Positions 1-4,482 of a stretch of 21,426 nucleotides of DNA are shown piece after piece. The notes below the pieces were generated by a model. The model worked only from the letters and a program-made list of their open reading frames with translations, did no database searches and was not told the origin of the DNA. This stretch comes from a virus: positions 1 to 21,426 of the IMG/VR virus record IMGVR_UViG_3300043410_001428; one strand, 5' to 3'. The translations under genes and the position numbers were made by a program. Numbering within the stretch: position 1 is the stretch's first letter; each line of letters opens with the position of its first letter.

Positions 1-308
1 TTGTAATAAGACTTCATTTTGAAGGTATTCATTGTTGGGAAAATTGTCCAATAGAAGAAGTTATATTTTTAAAAGACCCACATAGACATTTATTTCATAT
101 AGAATTAATTAAAGAGGTTAATCATAATGATAGAGATATTGAAATAATTATGTTAAAAAGACAAATTTTAAATTATTTAGGAATTCAACCTATACAATTA
201 GGAACTAAAAGTTGTGAAGATATTGCCGAAGATTTATTAAAAAAATTTAAAGCATATAGTGTTATGGTAACTGAGGATGGAGAAAATGGAGCAATAATAA
301 AACTATGA
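1..308 (+). CDS. QueD-like small protein, 5' end outside window
   Basis: The reading frame is open from base 3 to a TGA at 306-308, giving 101 visible residues; the start lies just upstream, and the family is probably only a few residues longer. I recognise the general phage family by its PHRHLFHIE and EDGENGA stretches, but I know no proven function. The motif order matches a QueD T-fold: His10 after an aromatic-x-x-x pattern, then His27-x-His29 (possible zinc ligands), a Ser70-Cys-Glu72-Asp-Ile-Ala stretch like the SAENMA of QueD, and a late Glu91. The catalytic Asp-His pair of QueD is absent. The stop overlaps the next ATG by four bases (ATGA), so it is probably translationally coupled to the glycosyltransferase and the queD-queE-folE genes. 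A role in 7-deazaguanine chemistry is inference; an unrelated HxH protein is the alternative. Confidence 0.75.
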   Translation, partial: VIRLHFEGIHCWENCPIEEVIFLKDPHRHLFHIELIKEVNHNDRDIEIIMLKRQILNYLGIQPIQLGTKSCEDIAEDLLKKFKAYSVMVTEDGENGAIIKL

Positions 309-1267
309 TAATATATTTACCATTAGAAAGTATTGATATGCGTTATACTACGCATTTAGATAGAGATATAAGAGAATACTTAGAAATATATCATAAAAAT
401 AATTATATAATACTTGAACCATTACAAGGAGATGGCAAAATTAATTCAGGTAGTTTTTTAGATGCAGGTCTTACTATTATGTCTAAAAGTAAACAAATAC
501 AAGATTTAGCAAGTTTATATAAAAAAAATATGATAAATGATGACGATATAGTTTTTACTACTGATTTATGGTTTACAGGAATTGAAGCTATTGCATATCT
601 AAATTATTTTTATAAAAAAAATATTAAGTTAAAAGGTATAATACATGCAGGTAGTTTTACCGATACTGATTTTGTTAGAGATATGGAAAGATGGGCTAAA
701 AATTTTGAAGATTGTGTTTTTGATATTGCTAATGAAATTTTTGTAGCAAGTAAATTTATTCAAGAAGATATTATTAAAAAAAGAATGGTAGATGCAAATA
801 AGATTATAGTTAGTGGATTGCCATTAGATTTTAAAAATATGAATAAATATAAAAATAATTTAAGTAAAGAAAATATAATAGTATTTAATGGTAGAAATGT
901 TGATGAAAAACAACCTTGGTTATTTGAACAATTAAAAAATGAACTCCCAAATTATACTTATGTTAATACTCATCAATTAAATTTAAGTAAAGAAGATTAT
1001 TATAAGTTATTATCAAAATCAAAAGTTGTAGTCAGTTTTGCATTACAAGAAAATTTTGGTTATGGCATACAAGAAGCAGTTTATTTAGGATGTATTCCAA
1101 TAGTTCCAAATAAATTAGTATATAAAGAACAATTTGATATAAAGTATAGATATAATAATTTTTTAGAATGTATTAAATTAGTTAATTTAGCTATGAATGA
1201 TAAATTATTAATACCAGAAATAAATATAAAAGAAAATTTTGAAATTTTTAAATATTGGTTTAAATGA
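305..1267 (+). CDS. GT-B fold glycosyltransferase (GT4-like)
   Basis: This 320-residue protein looks like a GT-B glycosyltransferase of the GT4 type. The C-terminal half has a strand-loop stretch SGLPLDF (about 170-176), a donor-domain start near IIVFNGRN (about 191-198), and the typical nucleotide-sugar signature ENFGYGIQEAVYLGCIPIV (about 248-266), where the E-x-FG-x-x-x-x-EA-x-x-x-G pattern holds the donor-binding glutamates. No signal peptide or membrane span is visible, so it is probably cytoplasmic. It overlaps the QueD-like gene upstream and queD downstream by four bases each (ATGA), embedding it in the deazaguanine operon. The acceptor is unknown: a modified DNA base is attractive from context, but phage GT4 enzymes can also modify cell-surface glycans. 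The gene is strikingly AT-rich, with 8 G+C in the 60 bases 841-900, unlike queE and folE. Confidence 0.8.
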   Translation: MIIYLPLESIDMRYTTHLDRDIREYLEIYHKNNYIILEPLQGDGKINSGSFLDAGLTIMSKSKQIQDLASLYKKNMINDDDIVFTTDLWFTGIEAIAYLNYFYKKNIKLKGIIHAGSFTDTDFVRDMERWAKNFEDCVFDIANEIFVASKFIQEDIIKKRMVDANKIIVSGLPLDFKNMNKYKNNLSKENIIVFNGRNVDEKQPWLFEQLKNELPNYTYVNTHQLNLSKEDYYKLLSKSKVVVSFALQENFGYGIQEAVYLGCIPIVPNKLVYKEQFDIKYRYNNFLECIKLVNLAMNDKLLIPEINIKENFEIFKYWFK

Positions 1268-1659
1268 TAATTGAGAAAAAATATCACTTCTATGCAGCAC
1301 ATAGAAATAAGAACGCAGGAGAAAAATGCGGAAGAATACATGGACATACCTACAATGTAGTATGTCATTTTAAGTTTAATGAAATAAAGGATGGAGTTAC
1401 TATGTTATTCTCAGATATAGATAAGATAGTAGAACCAATTATAAAACAGTACGACCACTACTTTCTATTGTATAGAGAAGATAGTTTATGTGATGTTTTA
1501 AATATGGCTAACGAACCTTTCATTGAACTGCCTTTTGAAACTAGTGCAGAGAATATGGCTTTATGGATATTCAATCAAATTAAAACTCATTTGCCAATAG
1601 TTAAGATAGAATTGGCAGAAACCAAATCAAGCAATGTAATATATGAAATTGGCAGTTAG
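1264..1659 (+). CDS. queD: 6-carboxy-5,6,7,8-tetrahydropterin synthase (QueD)
   Basis: QueD converts 7,8-dihydroneopterin triphosphate to 6-carboxy-5,6,7,8-tetrahydropterin, the second step from GTP to 7-deazaguanines, in the cytoplasm. The 131-residue length is normal. All key residues are visible: zinc ligands His13, His26 and His28 (FYAAH and IHGHTYNV), catalytic Cys22, the Asp64-His65 pair, the SAENMA helix (94-99) and the pterin-binding Glu119 followed by Thr. A 6-pyruvoyl-tetrahydropterin synthase is the close relative, but the Cys-Gly-Arg-Ile-His-Gly-His spacing and the queE and folE neighbours favour QueD. Its ATG overlaps the glycosyltransferase stop by four bases, and its 3' end overlaps queE by 17 bases, which indicates translational coupling. 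Confidence 0.95.
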   Translation: MIIEKKYHFYAAHRNKNAGEKCGRIHGHTYNVVCHFKFNEIKDGVTMLFSDIDKIVEPIIKQYDHYFLLYREDSLCDVLNMANEPFIELPFETSAENMALWIFNQIKTHLPIVKIELAETKSSNVIYEIGS

Positions 1660-2365
1660 CGAAGTATTCTATTCTATACAAGGAGAAGGAATGACAACAG
1701 GTTTCCCTGCAGTATTTGTACGACTAGCAGGATGTAACTTAATGTGCGGAGGTAAAGGAACGGAAAAGGATGGCAAATTACATGATGGAGCAACTTGGAG
1801 ATGTGATAGTATTGAGGTATGGATAAAAGGTAAAAGCAAACCTTACGCAGAAATACTACCTATTGAATGTCAAGAAGCAATTAGAAACGGAGCAAATATT
1901 ATCATAACAGGAGGAGAGCCAATGCTTCAACAAAAAAACATAGTAGGATTTATTGAATATTTAGAAACTTTGCATCCTTTCCCTTTTGTAGAGGTAGAAA
2001 CTAATGGAACAATTATGCCTAATGATGATATGTTAGAGTTAGTTTGTCAATGGAATATATCTCCTAAGTTAGCCAATAGCGGTATGCCTAAGGAAGATAG
2101 AATTAATATTGAAGTTTTAAAAAAATTAACTAACTACGATTGCCAATATAAGTTTGTAGTATCAAGCAGAAATGATTGGGAGGAAATAAAACAAGACTTT
2201 TTACCACACTTAGATAAAAGTTATATTACATTGATGCCAGCAGGTAGTAACCAAGAGGAACTAAAAGAAACAAAAGAATTGGTTGCAGAAATATGCAAGG
2301 AAAACTATTTAAGATTAACTAACCGATTACACATAGATATATGGAACAAGAAAACAGGAGTATAA
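1643..2365 (+). CDS. queE: 7-carboxy-7-deazaguanine synthase (QueE), radical SAM
   Basis: QueE is a radical S-adenosylmethionine enzyme that contracts 6-carboxytetrahydropterin to 7-carboxy-7-deazaguanine (CDG). The N-terminus carries the family stretch EVFYSIQGEG (7-16), which binds substrate and SAM, followed by FVRLAGCNLMC. Iron-sulfur cluster cysteines are likely Cys31, Cys35 and Cys54; the third lies 18 residues after the second, in WRCDS, so there is a loop insertion compared with the common C-x3-C-x2-C. ITGGEPMLQ (88-96) is the SAM-binding GGE motif, and VETNGT (about 118-123) and ISPK (139-142) are further QueE signatures. At 240 residues it is slightly longer than many bacterial forms. 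It overlaps queD by 17 and folE by 25 bases. With no queC in view, the product could be CDG itself or be processed by enzymes encoded elsewhere. Confidence 0.95.
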   Translation: MKLAVSEVFYSIQGEGMTTGFPAVFVRLAGCNLMCGGKGTEKDGKLHDGATWRCDSIEVWIKGKSKPYAEILPIECQEAIRNGANIIITGGEPMLQQKNIVGFIEYLETLHPFPFVEVETNGTIMPNDDMLELVCQWNISPKLANSGMPKEDRINIEVLKKLTNYDCQYKFVVSSRNDWEEIKQDFLPHLDKSYITLMPAGSNQEELKETKELVAEICKENYLRLTNRLHIDIWNKKTGV

Positions 2366-2907
2366 GACAATACCAAGAAGGTAGTGCTGAATGGCATTTC
2401 CAAAGTATTTTAGAACAATTAGGAGAAAATCCTCAAAGAGAAGGGTTACAAGAGACACCTAAAAGGTATATAAAGTTTATGAGGGAGTTCCTTGAACCAA
2501 AGGAATTTAACTTTACTAGCTTTGATGCCGAAGGAACGGATGAAATGATAGTACAAAGCAATATACCTTTCTATTCCTTATGCGAACATCATACCGCACC
2601 CTTCTTTGGAACAGGAGTTATTGCCTACATACCTGATAAAAAGATAGTAGGTCTAAGCAAATTGGCTAGAACTTTAGACCTTTTTGCAAATAGATTTCAA
2701 AATCAAGAAAGGATTACAACACAAGTAGCCACAAAAATATGGGAGGAATTAAGTCCAAGAGGAGTGGCAGTAAGCCTAAAAGCACAACACCTTTGTATGT
2801 GTATGCGAGGAGTTAAGAAGCACGATACATGGACTACAACTACCAAACTATTAGGAGTATTCAAAGAGGATGATAAAGCTAGGGCAGAATTCCTTAGATA
2901 TATCTAA
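2341..2907 (+). CDS. folE: GTP cyclohydrolase I (FolE)
   Basis: GTP cyclohydrolase I opens and rearranges GTP to 7,8-dihydroneopterin triphosphate, the substrate of QueD. The 188 residues form a complete enzyme. Zinc ligands are Cys81 and His84 in SLCEHH and Cys152 in HLCMCMRG; catalytic histidines are His83 and His150. The signature blocks IVGLSKLAR (102-110) and QNQERITTQ (120-128) are intact, as is the N-terminal REGLQETPKR (33-42). Although last in the cassette, it encodes the first enzyme of the pathway, so the phage can raise flux from GTP without the host enzyme. The start overlaps queE by 25 bases. The terminase small subunit begins 17 bases after the stop, with no terminator between, so packaging genes are probably on the same transcript. 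Confidence 0.96.
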   Translation: MEQENRSIRQYQEGSAEWHFQSILEQLGENPQREGLQETPKRYIKFMREFLEPKEFNFTSFDAEGTDEMIVQSNIPFYSLCEHHTAPFFGTGVIAYIPDKKIVGLSKLARTLDLFANRFQNQERITTQVATKIWEELSPRGVAVSLKAQHLCMCMRGVKKHDTWTTTTKLLGVFKEDDKARAEFLRYI

Positions 2908-2924
2908 AACAGAACAATAACAGA

Positions 2925-3329
2925 ATGAGCAAAGAACATTTGATACCATTTAAAAAAGGGCAAAGTGGCAATCCAAAAGGTCGCCCAAGAAAGTATGTCA
3001 GCCTTTTAAAGGAGCAGGGATACAAAGTAAGTGAGGTAAATGATGCCATCCAAGCAATGATGTCTATGACCTTTGATGAGTTAAAGGAAGTATTCAATGA
3101 TGAAAGTGCAACAATATTAGAAAAGACAATTGCCAATGCTATGAAGAAGTCATTGGAGAAGGGCAGTCTTTACTCATTAGACACCCTTTTAACGAGGGTT
3201 TATGGCAAACCTAGGGAAACTATCGACACAAACAATAAAACCGAACTAAAGGGCAGAATAGAGGTAGTAGTGAATAAAAGTGATGTTCCTTTATCAAACA
3301 GAGAAACGGATGTAGATGTTAGCAGATAA
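2925..3329 (+). CDS. Probable terminase small subunit (DUF5681-like N-terminus)
   Basis: This 134-residue protein lies directly before the large terminase and overlaps it by 14 bases, the usual position of the DNA-recognising small subunit. The N-terminus has the basic stretch FKKGQSGNPKGRPRK (9-23), characteristic of DUF5681, a family common beside phage terminases. The middle (about 35-95) is predicted to be helical, including EKTIANAMKKSLEKG and DTLLTRVYGKPRE, similar to the C-terminal part of many small terminases; the tail is polar. No classical helix-turn-helix is obvious by eye, so the function rests on position and the DUF5681 motif. There is no Shine-Dalgarno sequence before the ATG. 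Confidence 0.75.
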   Translation: MSKEHLIPFKKGQSGNPKGRPRKYVSLLKEQGYKVSEVNDAIQAMMSMTFDELKEVFNDESATILEKTIANAMKKSLEKGSLYSLDTLLTRVYGKPRETIDTNNKTELKGRIEVVVNKSDVPLSNRETDVDVSR

Positions 3330-4482
3330 CAAACTATTTGAAACAAGTGTTGTTTTTGAAAGCAACCGCAACTCCTTAGCTGATATTGTAGTCAATCAGG
3401 GAGGAACTTCAAGCGGTAAGACCTATAGTATCTTGCAGAACCTTTTCCTTCATGCCATTGAGGATGACAATCAAGTAATTACAATAGTAGGGCAGGATAT
3501 TCCTAACTTAAAGGTAGGTGCCTTGCGTGATGCCCAAACAATATTAGAGAAGTCCGAGATATTGCAGTCCTTTGTTGCTGATTTTAATAAAAGCGACAGG
3601 ATTTATACCTTTATCAATGGTTCTATAATGGAGTTTAAAAGCTACGAGGATGCTCAGGATGCTAAGTCAGGTAAAAGGGATTACCTATTTGTAAACGAAG
3701 CCAATGGTATCACTAAGGATATATTTGATGAATTGTATATAAGAACAAAGCATAAGACATATTTAGATTACAACCCTAACATAGAATTTTGGGTGCATCA
3801 TGAACTAATAGGTAAACCAAATGTGGAGTTAATAATTAGCGACCATAGGCACAACCCTTTCCTTGATGCAAAAATACACGAGAAGATAGAAGCGATTGAG
3901 GATGAGGAATTGTGGAAGGTATATGCAAGAGGATTAACAGGTAAATTAGAGGGAGTTATCTTTAGGGATTATAATGTAATTACAAATGTTAGCTTGGATG
4001 CTAAACTAATAGGATATGGTTTAGACTTTGGATTTACCAACGACCCTACTGCCCTTATTGCAGTTTATAGCCAAAGTGGAGAATTAGTCTTAGATGAATT
4101 AATTTATGAAAAAGGTCTTTTGAATGTTAGAATATCTGACAGGATGCGAGAATTGTCAGTTGCAGGGAGAATCATTGCAGATTCCGCAGAGCCTAAAAGT
4201 ATCTCGGAGTTGCAAGGATACGGATGGATGGTCGAACCTGCCCAAAAAGGTAGGGATAGTATTAAACAATCCATAAATATCCTTAAACGCTACAAATTGA
4301 ATGTTACTCAAAGAAGCCACAACCTCAAAAAGGAACTAAATAACTATAAATGGAAGCAAAATAGGGATGGAAGGCTAGAGAACGAGCCTGTGGATTTCCT
4401 AAACCATAGTATAGATGCAGTACGATATGTGTGCTTAAATGCCCTAAATAATGTATCTGAGGGCAAATATAGTTTCGTTTAA
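3316..4482 (+). CDS. terL: Terminase large subunit (ATPase-nuclease)
   Basis: This is the DNA-packaging motor and headful or cohesive-end nuclease, 388 residues. The N-terminal ATPase domain has a Walker A GGTSSGKT (29-36), with Lys35 as the phosphate-binding lysine, and a Walker B strand YLFVNEAN (123-130) with Glu128 as candidate catalytic acid. The C-terminal RNase H-like nuclease has Asp237 in LDFGFTNDPTA, Asp289 in IIADSAEP and Asp367 in LNHSIDAVRYV, the expected three acidic residues. It is a little short for the family but complete. It follows the small subunit with a 14-base overlap. The gene is followed by a 136-base region rich in dyads, not by the portal gene as usual. Confidence 0.95.
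   Translation: MLADNKLFETSVVFESNRNSLADIVVNQGGTSSGKTYSILQNLFLHAIEDDNQVITIVGQDIPNLKVGALRDAQTILEKSEILQSFVADFNKSDRIYTFINGSIMEFKSYEDAQDAKSGKRDYLFVNEANGITKDIFDELYIRTKHKTYLDYNPNIEFWVHHELIGKPNVELIISDHRHNPFLDAKIHEKIEAIEDEELWKVYARGLTGKLEGVIFRDYNVITNVSLDAKLIGYGLDFGFTNDPTALIAVYSQSGELVLDELIYEKGLLNVRISDRMRELSVAGRIIADSAEPKSISELQGYGWMVEPAQKGRDSIKQSINILKRYKLNVTQRSHNLKKELNNYKWKQNRDGRLENEPVDFLNHSIDAVRYVCLNALNNVSEGKYSFV

Follow-up and report, generated by a model that had tools for sequence, protein, structure and literature searches.

The window, by which we mean the whole stretch of DNA analysed (21,426 nucleotides, positions 1 to 21,426 of IMG/VR record IMGVR_UViG_3300043410_001428), belongs to a tailed phage with terminase, portal and tape measure genes, probably one of Bacteroidota because the closest architecture is found in a Flavobacterium MAG contig (L103). 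Its left edge cuts into a frame of 101 residues, open from the contig edge, that encodes a QueD-like protein; judging from the related loci L002 and L003, the start codon and about four residues lie off the contig, giving a whole gene of about 105 residues. Genes for a glycosyltransferase, QueD, QueE and FolE follow (Table 1). In operons of the window type, the gene just upstream of the QueD-like gene, off the contig here, encodes a DpdA assigned to the PHROG of the phage 9g DpdA, which has been experimentally tested (PMC6884629). The full operon of the window is thus presumably DpdA, QueD-like, glycosyltransferase, QueD, QueE and FolE.

Table 1. Features at the left end of the window, with the predicted roles of conserved residues
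Feature	Position	Strand	Basis
QueD-like T-fold protein (PHROG 17812), 5'-truncated, proposed CDG decarboxylase (DpdL-like)	3..308	+	homology, structure model, operon context
His10, first predicted zinc ligand (QueD H13)	30..32	+	sequence; 64/65 relatives
His27-Arg28-His29, second and third predicted zinc ligands (QueD H26-x-H28)	81..89	+	both His 65/65
Arg44-Asp45-Ile46-Glu47, invariant Arg and Glu specific to the QueD-like family	132..143	+	R44 and E47 65/65
Ser70-Cys71-Glu72 (QueD S/T-A-E)	210..218	+	each 65/65; aligned with QueD SAE
Glu91-Asp92, predicted base-anchoring Glu (QueD E119) and family-specific Asp	273..278	+	E91 65/65, D92 64/65
Low-GC (22%) cassette of QueD-like gene and glycosyltransferase, exchanged relative to L215	1..1263	.	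breakpoint at QueD start codon
GT4-type glycosyltransferase; its start codon overlaps the 3' end of the QueD-like gene	305..1267	+	model, homologues, conserved residues
QueD (PF01242), intact, with Cys22 and Asp64-His65	1264..1659	+	Pfam/PHROG match, alignment
QueE, CDG synthase, radical SAM	1643..2365	+	PHROG 2076, E 3e-54
FolE, GTP cyclohydrolase I	2341..2907	+	PF01227, E 3e-61

The QueD-like fragment matched PHROG 17812, a family with no assigned function (E 1e-22), while a Pfam search that included the PTPS model returned nothing at E 1, and a PDB search by sequence gave no match worth using. An earlier note on this DNA, made by eye, had claimed that F-x-x-x-H10, H27-x-H29, S70-C71-E72-D-I-A and E91 stand in the same order as H13, H26/H28, SAE and E119 of the QueD downstream, and that the Asp64-His65 pair of QueD has no counterpart. 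These residues are present and conserved in 65 aligned relatives, profile-profile alignment placed each of them on its QueD counterpart, and the Asp-His pair is indeed absent. H27, H29, F31, R44, E47, S70, C71, E72 and E91 are invariant in all 65, and H10, H41 and D92 are nearly so, because of which we do not attribute the pattern to chance; Cys14 of the window copy is not conserved. In QueD the three His bind zinc, the Glu anchors the base, and a Cys together with the Asp-His pair carries out catalysis. That Cys (C22 in the QueD of the window) is missing from the QueD-like family as well, a point not made earlier. In a set of 26 phage QueD proteins C22 is found in 26, D64 in 23 and H65 in 26, and none of the three has a counterpart in the QueD-like family. 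Within the QueD set itself, the third zinc His is replaced by Tyr in seven proteins and the first is missing from five, with the Cys and catalytic His kept.

Homology to QueD was settled by enlarging the QueD set. With only five QueD rows the profile-profile comparison was weak (42%), but with 26 QueD proteins against the 65 relatives it aligned 102 columns at a probability of 94% (E 1.1e-7), whereas FolE, QueE and glycosyltransferase controls reached at most 0.8%. The earlier prediction of a T-fold is likewise borne out by an AlphaFold2 model built on 53 rows (pLDDT 95.3, pTM 0.85), which has the secondary-structure order E-H-E-H-(E)-H-E-E and contains the beta-beta-alpha-alpha-beta-beta core of a T-fold. 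Its best PDB matches in Foldseek are to E. coli QueD (E 1e-4), and VIA-align superimposed 97 residues on the same protein (3qna, 4ntk) with a Z of 11.5 at 2.4 Å, followed by DHNA, QueF-like, urate oxidase and FolE structures. As judged from alignment and model, then, the fragment is a T-fold protein in which the binding residues of QueD are kept and its catalytic ones are gone. The family shares with QueD/PTPS (PF01242) the fold, the three-His metal site, the order of the S-x-E motif and base-anchoring Glu, and the operons in which it occurs; it differs from QueD/PTPS in the lost Cys and Asp-His, in its length (101–130 residues), in the invariant R44, E47 and C71, and in coexisting with QueD. 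We consider it probable, to the same degree as the decarboxylase explanation set out below, that this is a QueD-superfamily enzyme that no longer makes CPH4.

The family keeps close company with deazaguanine genes. In tblastn searches of phage records 27 of 28 matches were convincing, and relatives occur in at least 592 viral-contig stretches. The expectation that the family would be restricted to contigs with deazaguanine genes agrees with a profile scan of 97 loci: at least one of FolE, QueD and QueE was found at 86, and ten of the remaining 11 have a DpdA/TGT-like gene, the last being a 4 kb fragment. All 336 matches to neighbouring genes at these loci lie on the same strand as the QueD-like gene. 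When whole records that bear the family were searched, FolE and QueE were found in 21 of 22 and QueD in 21 of 24, usually in the same operon. QueC exceeded the Pfam cut-off (PF06508) in only two of 24, both times weakly and partially; weak partial matches in D479, X1 and G008, which are probably other ATP pyrophosphatases, mean that the absence of QueC is not clean. A pattern scan of 84,980 bacterial and archaeal species genomes found the family on only 23 contigs, nearly all of them MAG contigs with the same neighbours. Only one complete genome lacks FolE, QueD and QueE, that of Faecalibacterium phage Roos (PP479939, L009), where the QueD-like gene adjoins a queuine-transferase-like gene and a whole-record search for FolE, QueD, QueE and QueC found none; its precursor CDG may be drawn from the host.

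The position of the family in the pathway is indicated by its alternation with QueC. We fetched loci with the QueE of the window alone, so that neither QueC nor the QueD-like gene was selected for. Of the 35 loci obtained, scored over whole contigs with the Pfam QueC model, 12 have QueC, 15 have the QueD-like gene, none has both and eight have neither (Fisher p 1.8e-4, with related contigs treated as independent). Whichever of the two genes is present lies between DpdA and QueD in these related operons. QueC (PF06508) and the QueD-like protein thus share an operon slot and a branch point after QueE, but QueC has an unrelated ATP pyrophosphatase fold and yields preQ0. Since QueC consumes CDG, the QueD-like gene appears to take over this step from QueC, and this mutual exclusion supports the earlier suggestion that the protein acts on CDG. 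The combination FolE-QueD-QueE-QueC-DpdA gives dPreQ0, and it has been noted for phage Bipper that CDG is the base available in the absence of QueC (PMC6884629). For phages that have QueE but lack QueC, the QueD-like protein is a candidate enzyme for the missing conversion of CDG to 7-deazaguanine, and the rule that an operon has QueC or the QueD-like gene, never both, predicts the DNA base from sequence.

We now infer, as the probable explanation, that the QueD-like protein is a CDG decarboxylase that processes the product of QueE to 7-deazaguanine where QueC otherwise would. This reading follows from the absence of QueC and from the set of bases known in phages, and decarboxylation is favoured because it is the simplest cofactor-free reaction that consumes CDG. 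Glu91, with Ser70 and Glu72, would anchor the guanine edge, and a metal held by His10, His27 and His29 would chelate the C7-carboxylate and the neighbouring O6. Arg44 would orient the carboxylate, and Asp92, Glu47 or Cys71 could be the acid that protonates C7 as CO2 leaves. The resulting 7-deazaguanine would then be exchanged into phage DNA by a DpdA-type transglycosylase and, in most operons including that of the window, be decorated afterwards by the glycosyltransferase. In isoorotate decarboxylase the metal binds a carboxylate and a carbonyl, to which the C7 carboxylate and O6 of CDG form a similar chelating pair, and QueF is a precedent for a T-fold enzyme that carries out chemistry at C7 of a deazaguanine. 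Like the proposed enzyme, QueF and QueF-L act on the C7 substituent, but they act on a nitrile through a nucleophilic Cys and are weaker structural matches (Z about 8 or less); the invariant C71 of the QueD-like family sits at the S-A-E position of QueD, and the protein has no QueF Pfam match. TubF, a UbiD-family decarboxylase of the tubercidin cluster, presumably strips a CDG-derived compound of its C7 carboxyl, but it has another fold and a prFMN cofactor, and its decarboxylation is thought to follow phosphoribosyl transfer (PMC6112128).

A name may already exist for the family. Its loci present the context of a DpdL-type enzyme, in that FolE, QueD, QueE and DpdA are present without QueC. 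Cui et al. (2023) reportedly found dDG as well as dCDG in phages and proposed that a phage enzyme, which they named DpdL, decarboxylates CDG; the QueD-like family (PHROG 17812) is probably the same. The proposed reaction, the phage setting and the occurrence of QueE without QueC are common to DpdL and the QueD-like family, which differs in its association with a glycosyltransferase; we know of no such link for DpdL. Our literature search on DpdL, CDG decarboxylase and glycosylated deazaguanine retrieved nothing on the QueD-like family. A 2025 paper states that further derivatives are described by Cui et al. (PMC12783734).

The DpdA proteins, for their part, vary as if DpdA follows the base: those of QueD-like operons are 58–69% identical to the L103 copy, whereas identity is 23–26% for the DpdA proteins of phage 9g and of QueC operons. 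A subset, type a, is called DpdA-like from motif order and position only, without Pfam support, and a profile comparison of type a with other TGT-like proteins gave 1–6%, with no tie.

The gene that follows the QueD-like gene encodes the glycosyltransferase. Its model has a GT-B fold (pLDDT 92.8) nearest to MshA/BshA (E 1e-10), the invariant residues R197, K202, E257 and E275 supply the Arg...Lys and C-terminal Glu of a GT4 nucleotide-sugar site, and the X1 homologue matches PF00534 (E 8e-12). Homologues adjoin the QueD-like gene or DpdA in X1, PA5oct, ACP17, BUCT-ZZ01 and Phosso. When loci were fetched with the glycosyltransferase, the QueD-like gene was present in all 16 of the window type and in those of the ACP17 type, the sole exception being the incomplete contig L217. 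In the other direction, a glycosyltransferase is found in 74 of 77 QueD-like loci outside type a and in none of 20 type a operons, nor did a search of the whole type a records find one; it is also absent from seven type d operons fetched with QueE (L214, L221, L226, L227, L230, L232 and L234). Because the glycosyltransferase occurs only with the QueD-like gene and the reverse is untrue, we regard the QueD-like enzyme as the core and the glycosyltransferase as dependent on it.

The QueD-like protein could act on CDG by something other than plain decarboxylation, leaving C7 with a hydroxyl or some other handle for the glycosyltransferase or a kinase to use; examples would be a decarboxylative hydroxylation, or a step of the aldolase type known from DHNA. 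That the glycosyltransferase never occurs without the family, that a kinase is fused to it in L039, L045 and L161 and encoded separately beside it in phiST and MA9V-3, and that urate oxidase, a T-fold, cofactor-free oxygenase, and DHNA are among the structural matches all speak for such a step, and with the radical SAM enzyme found in some operons a handle-bearing product might be a better fit than bare 7-deazaguanine. The seven type d operons, which have the QueD-like gene and DpdA without a glycosyltransferase, count against it, as does the lack of any family-wide redox-cofactor feature, and we regard it as unlikely. Alternatively, the loss of the QueD catalytic residues and the tight linkage to DpdA would suit a protein without catalytic activity that delivers CDG to DpdA, as a carrier or specificity factor, so that dCDG ends up in DNA. 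The three His and the newly invariant R44, E47, C71 and D92 instead resemble a maintained active site, and carriers rarely keep a full metal site, which makes such a role quite unlikely.

Two further possibilities were weighed. It could be a divergent QueD that replaces or supplements the CPH4 synthase, as its QueD fold and zinc residues would allow; we give this very little credence, since the Cys and Asp-His are lost in all relatives and the gene alternates with QueC, not QueD. Substitution for QueD was rejected outright, because a true QueD coexists with it in the records counted above. Pterins are also made by FolE and QueD, and the protein might be linked to deazaguanines by ancestry only and act on a pterin for some other purpose. 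Its constant neighbours QueE and DpdA, however, have no pterin role after CPH4, and the alternation with QueC puts it after QueE, so that this last idea is barely credible. Decarboxylation of CDG remains our preferred reading.

Comparison with a near-identical phage contig, L215, suggests that the glycosyltransferase and its partner also travel together. Two stretches, one of 3.2 and one of 4.2 kb, are 95–96% identical between this contig and the window, and their QueD and FolE proteins are 99.2% and 98.9% identical, whereas the QueD-like proteins are only 61% and the glycosyltransferases 24% identical. Identity starts at the QueD start codon; the counterpart of the cassette in L215 lies at 2652–4126, and the GC content of the window is 22% at positions 1–1263 and 34% downstream. 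Against a misassembly of the window at 1264 speak the exact ATGA overlap and the loci L103, L256 and L002, in which the genes stand in the same order. On this comparison, the pair is a unit that has been swapped between near-identical phages, which suggests that a change of modification is selected for, presumably as a defence against restriction by the host. Together, glycosyltransferase linkage and cassette exchange suggest a glycosylated 7-deazaguanine in phage DNA, and they are the new part of this work where the family itself may already be DpdL. More tentatively, and with some doubt, we propose that the exchangeable cassette makes and then glycosylates a 7-deazaguanine base, the nucleophilic C7 being freed by decarboxylation or furnished with another handle, and that different cassettes would put different sugars on the DNA of one and the same phage. 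To our knowledge no sugar-bearing deazaguanine has been described as a DNA base.

Several loci carry additional genes. A radical SAM protein of about 450 residues lies between the QueD-like gene and the glycosyltransferase in L004, L026, L030, L031 and L034 (PF04055, E 5e-14 in L026) and may be a further tailoring enzyme. The QueD-like domain is fused to a P-loop kinase-like protein in L039 (7186–8154), L045 (9902–10870) and L161 (12463–13389), and in phiST (L005) the QueD-like gene is followed by a separate P-loop kinase-like gene (gp040-gp041), a kinase also lying beside it in MA9V-3; the loci of L039, L045, L161 and phiST have DpdA of type a and no glycosyltransferase. Methyltransferase-like genes, possibly also for tailoring enzymes, adjoin the QueD-like gene in L025 (6247–6900) and L027 (10719–11318), and in two window-related operons (L235, 6810–7391; L236, 774–1355) a putative class I methyltransferase of 190 residues occupies the slot otherwise held by QueC or the QueD-like gene. 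Finally, the QueD-like domain is fused in L036 (9805–10761) and L213 (11980–12741) to an unknown domain marked by 'EGP...TLFIP...YYGAGNDR', which is a separate ORF beside the QueD-like gene in L027 and L037.
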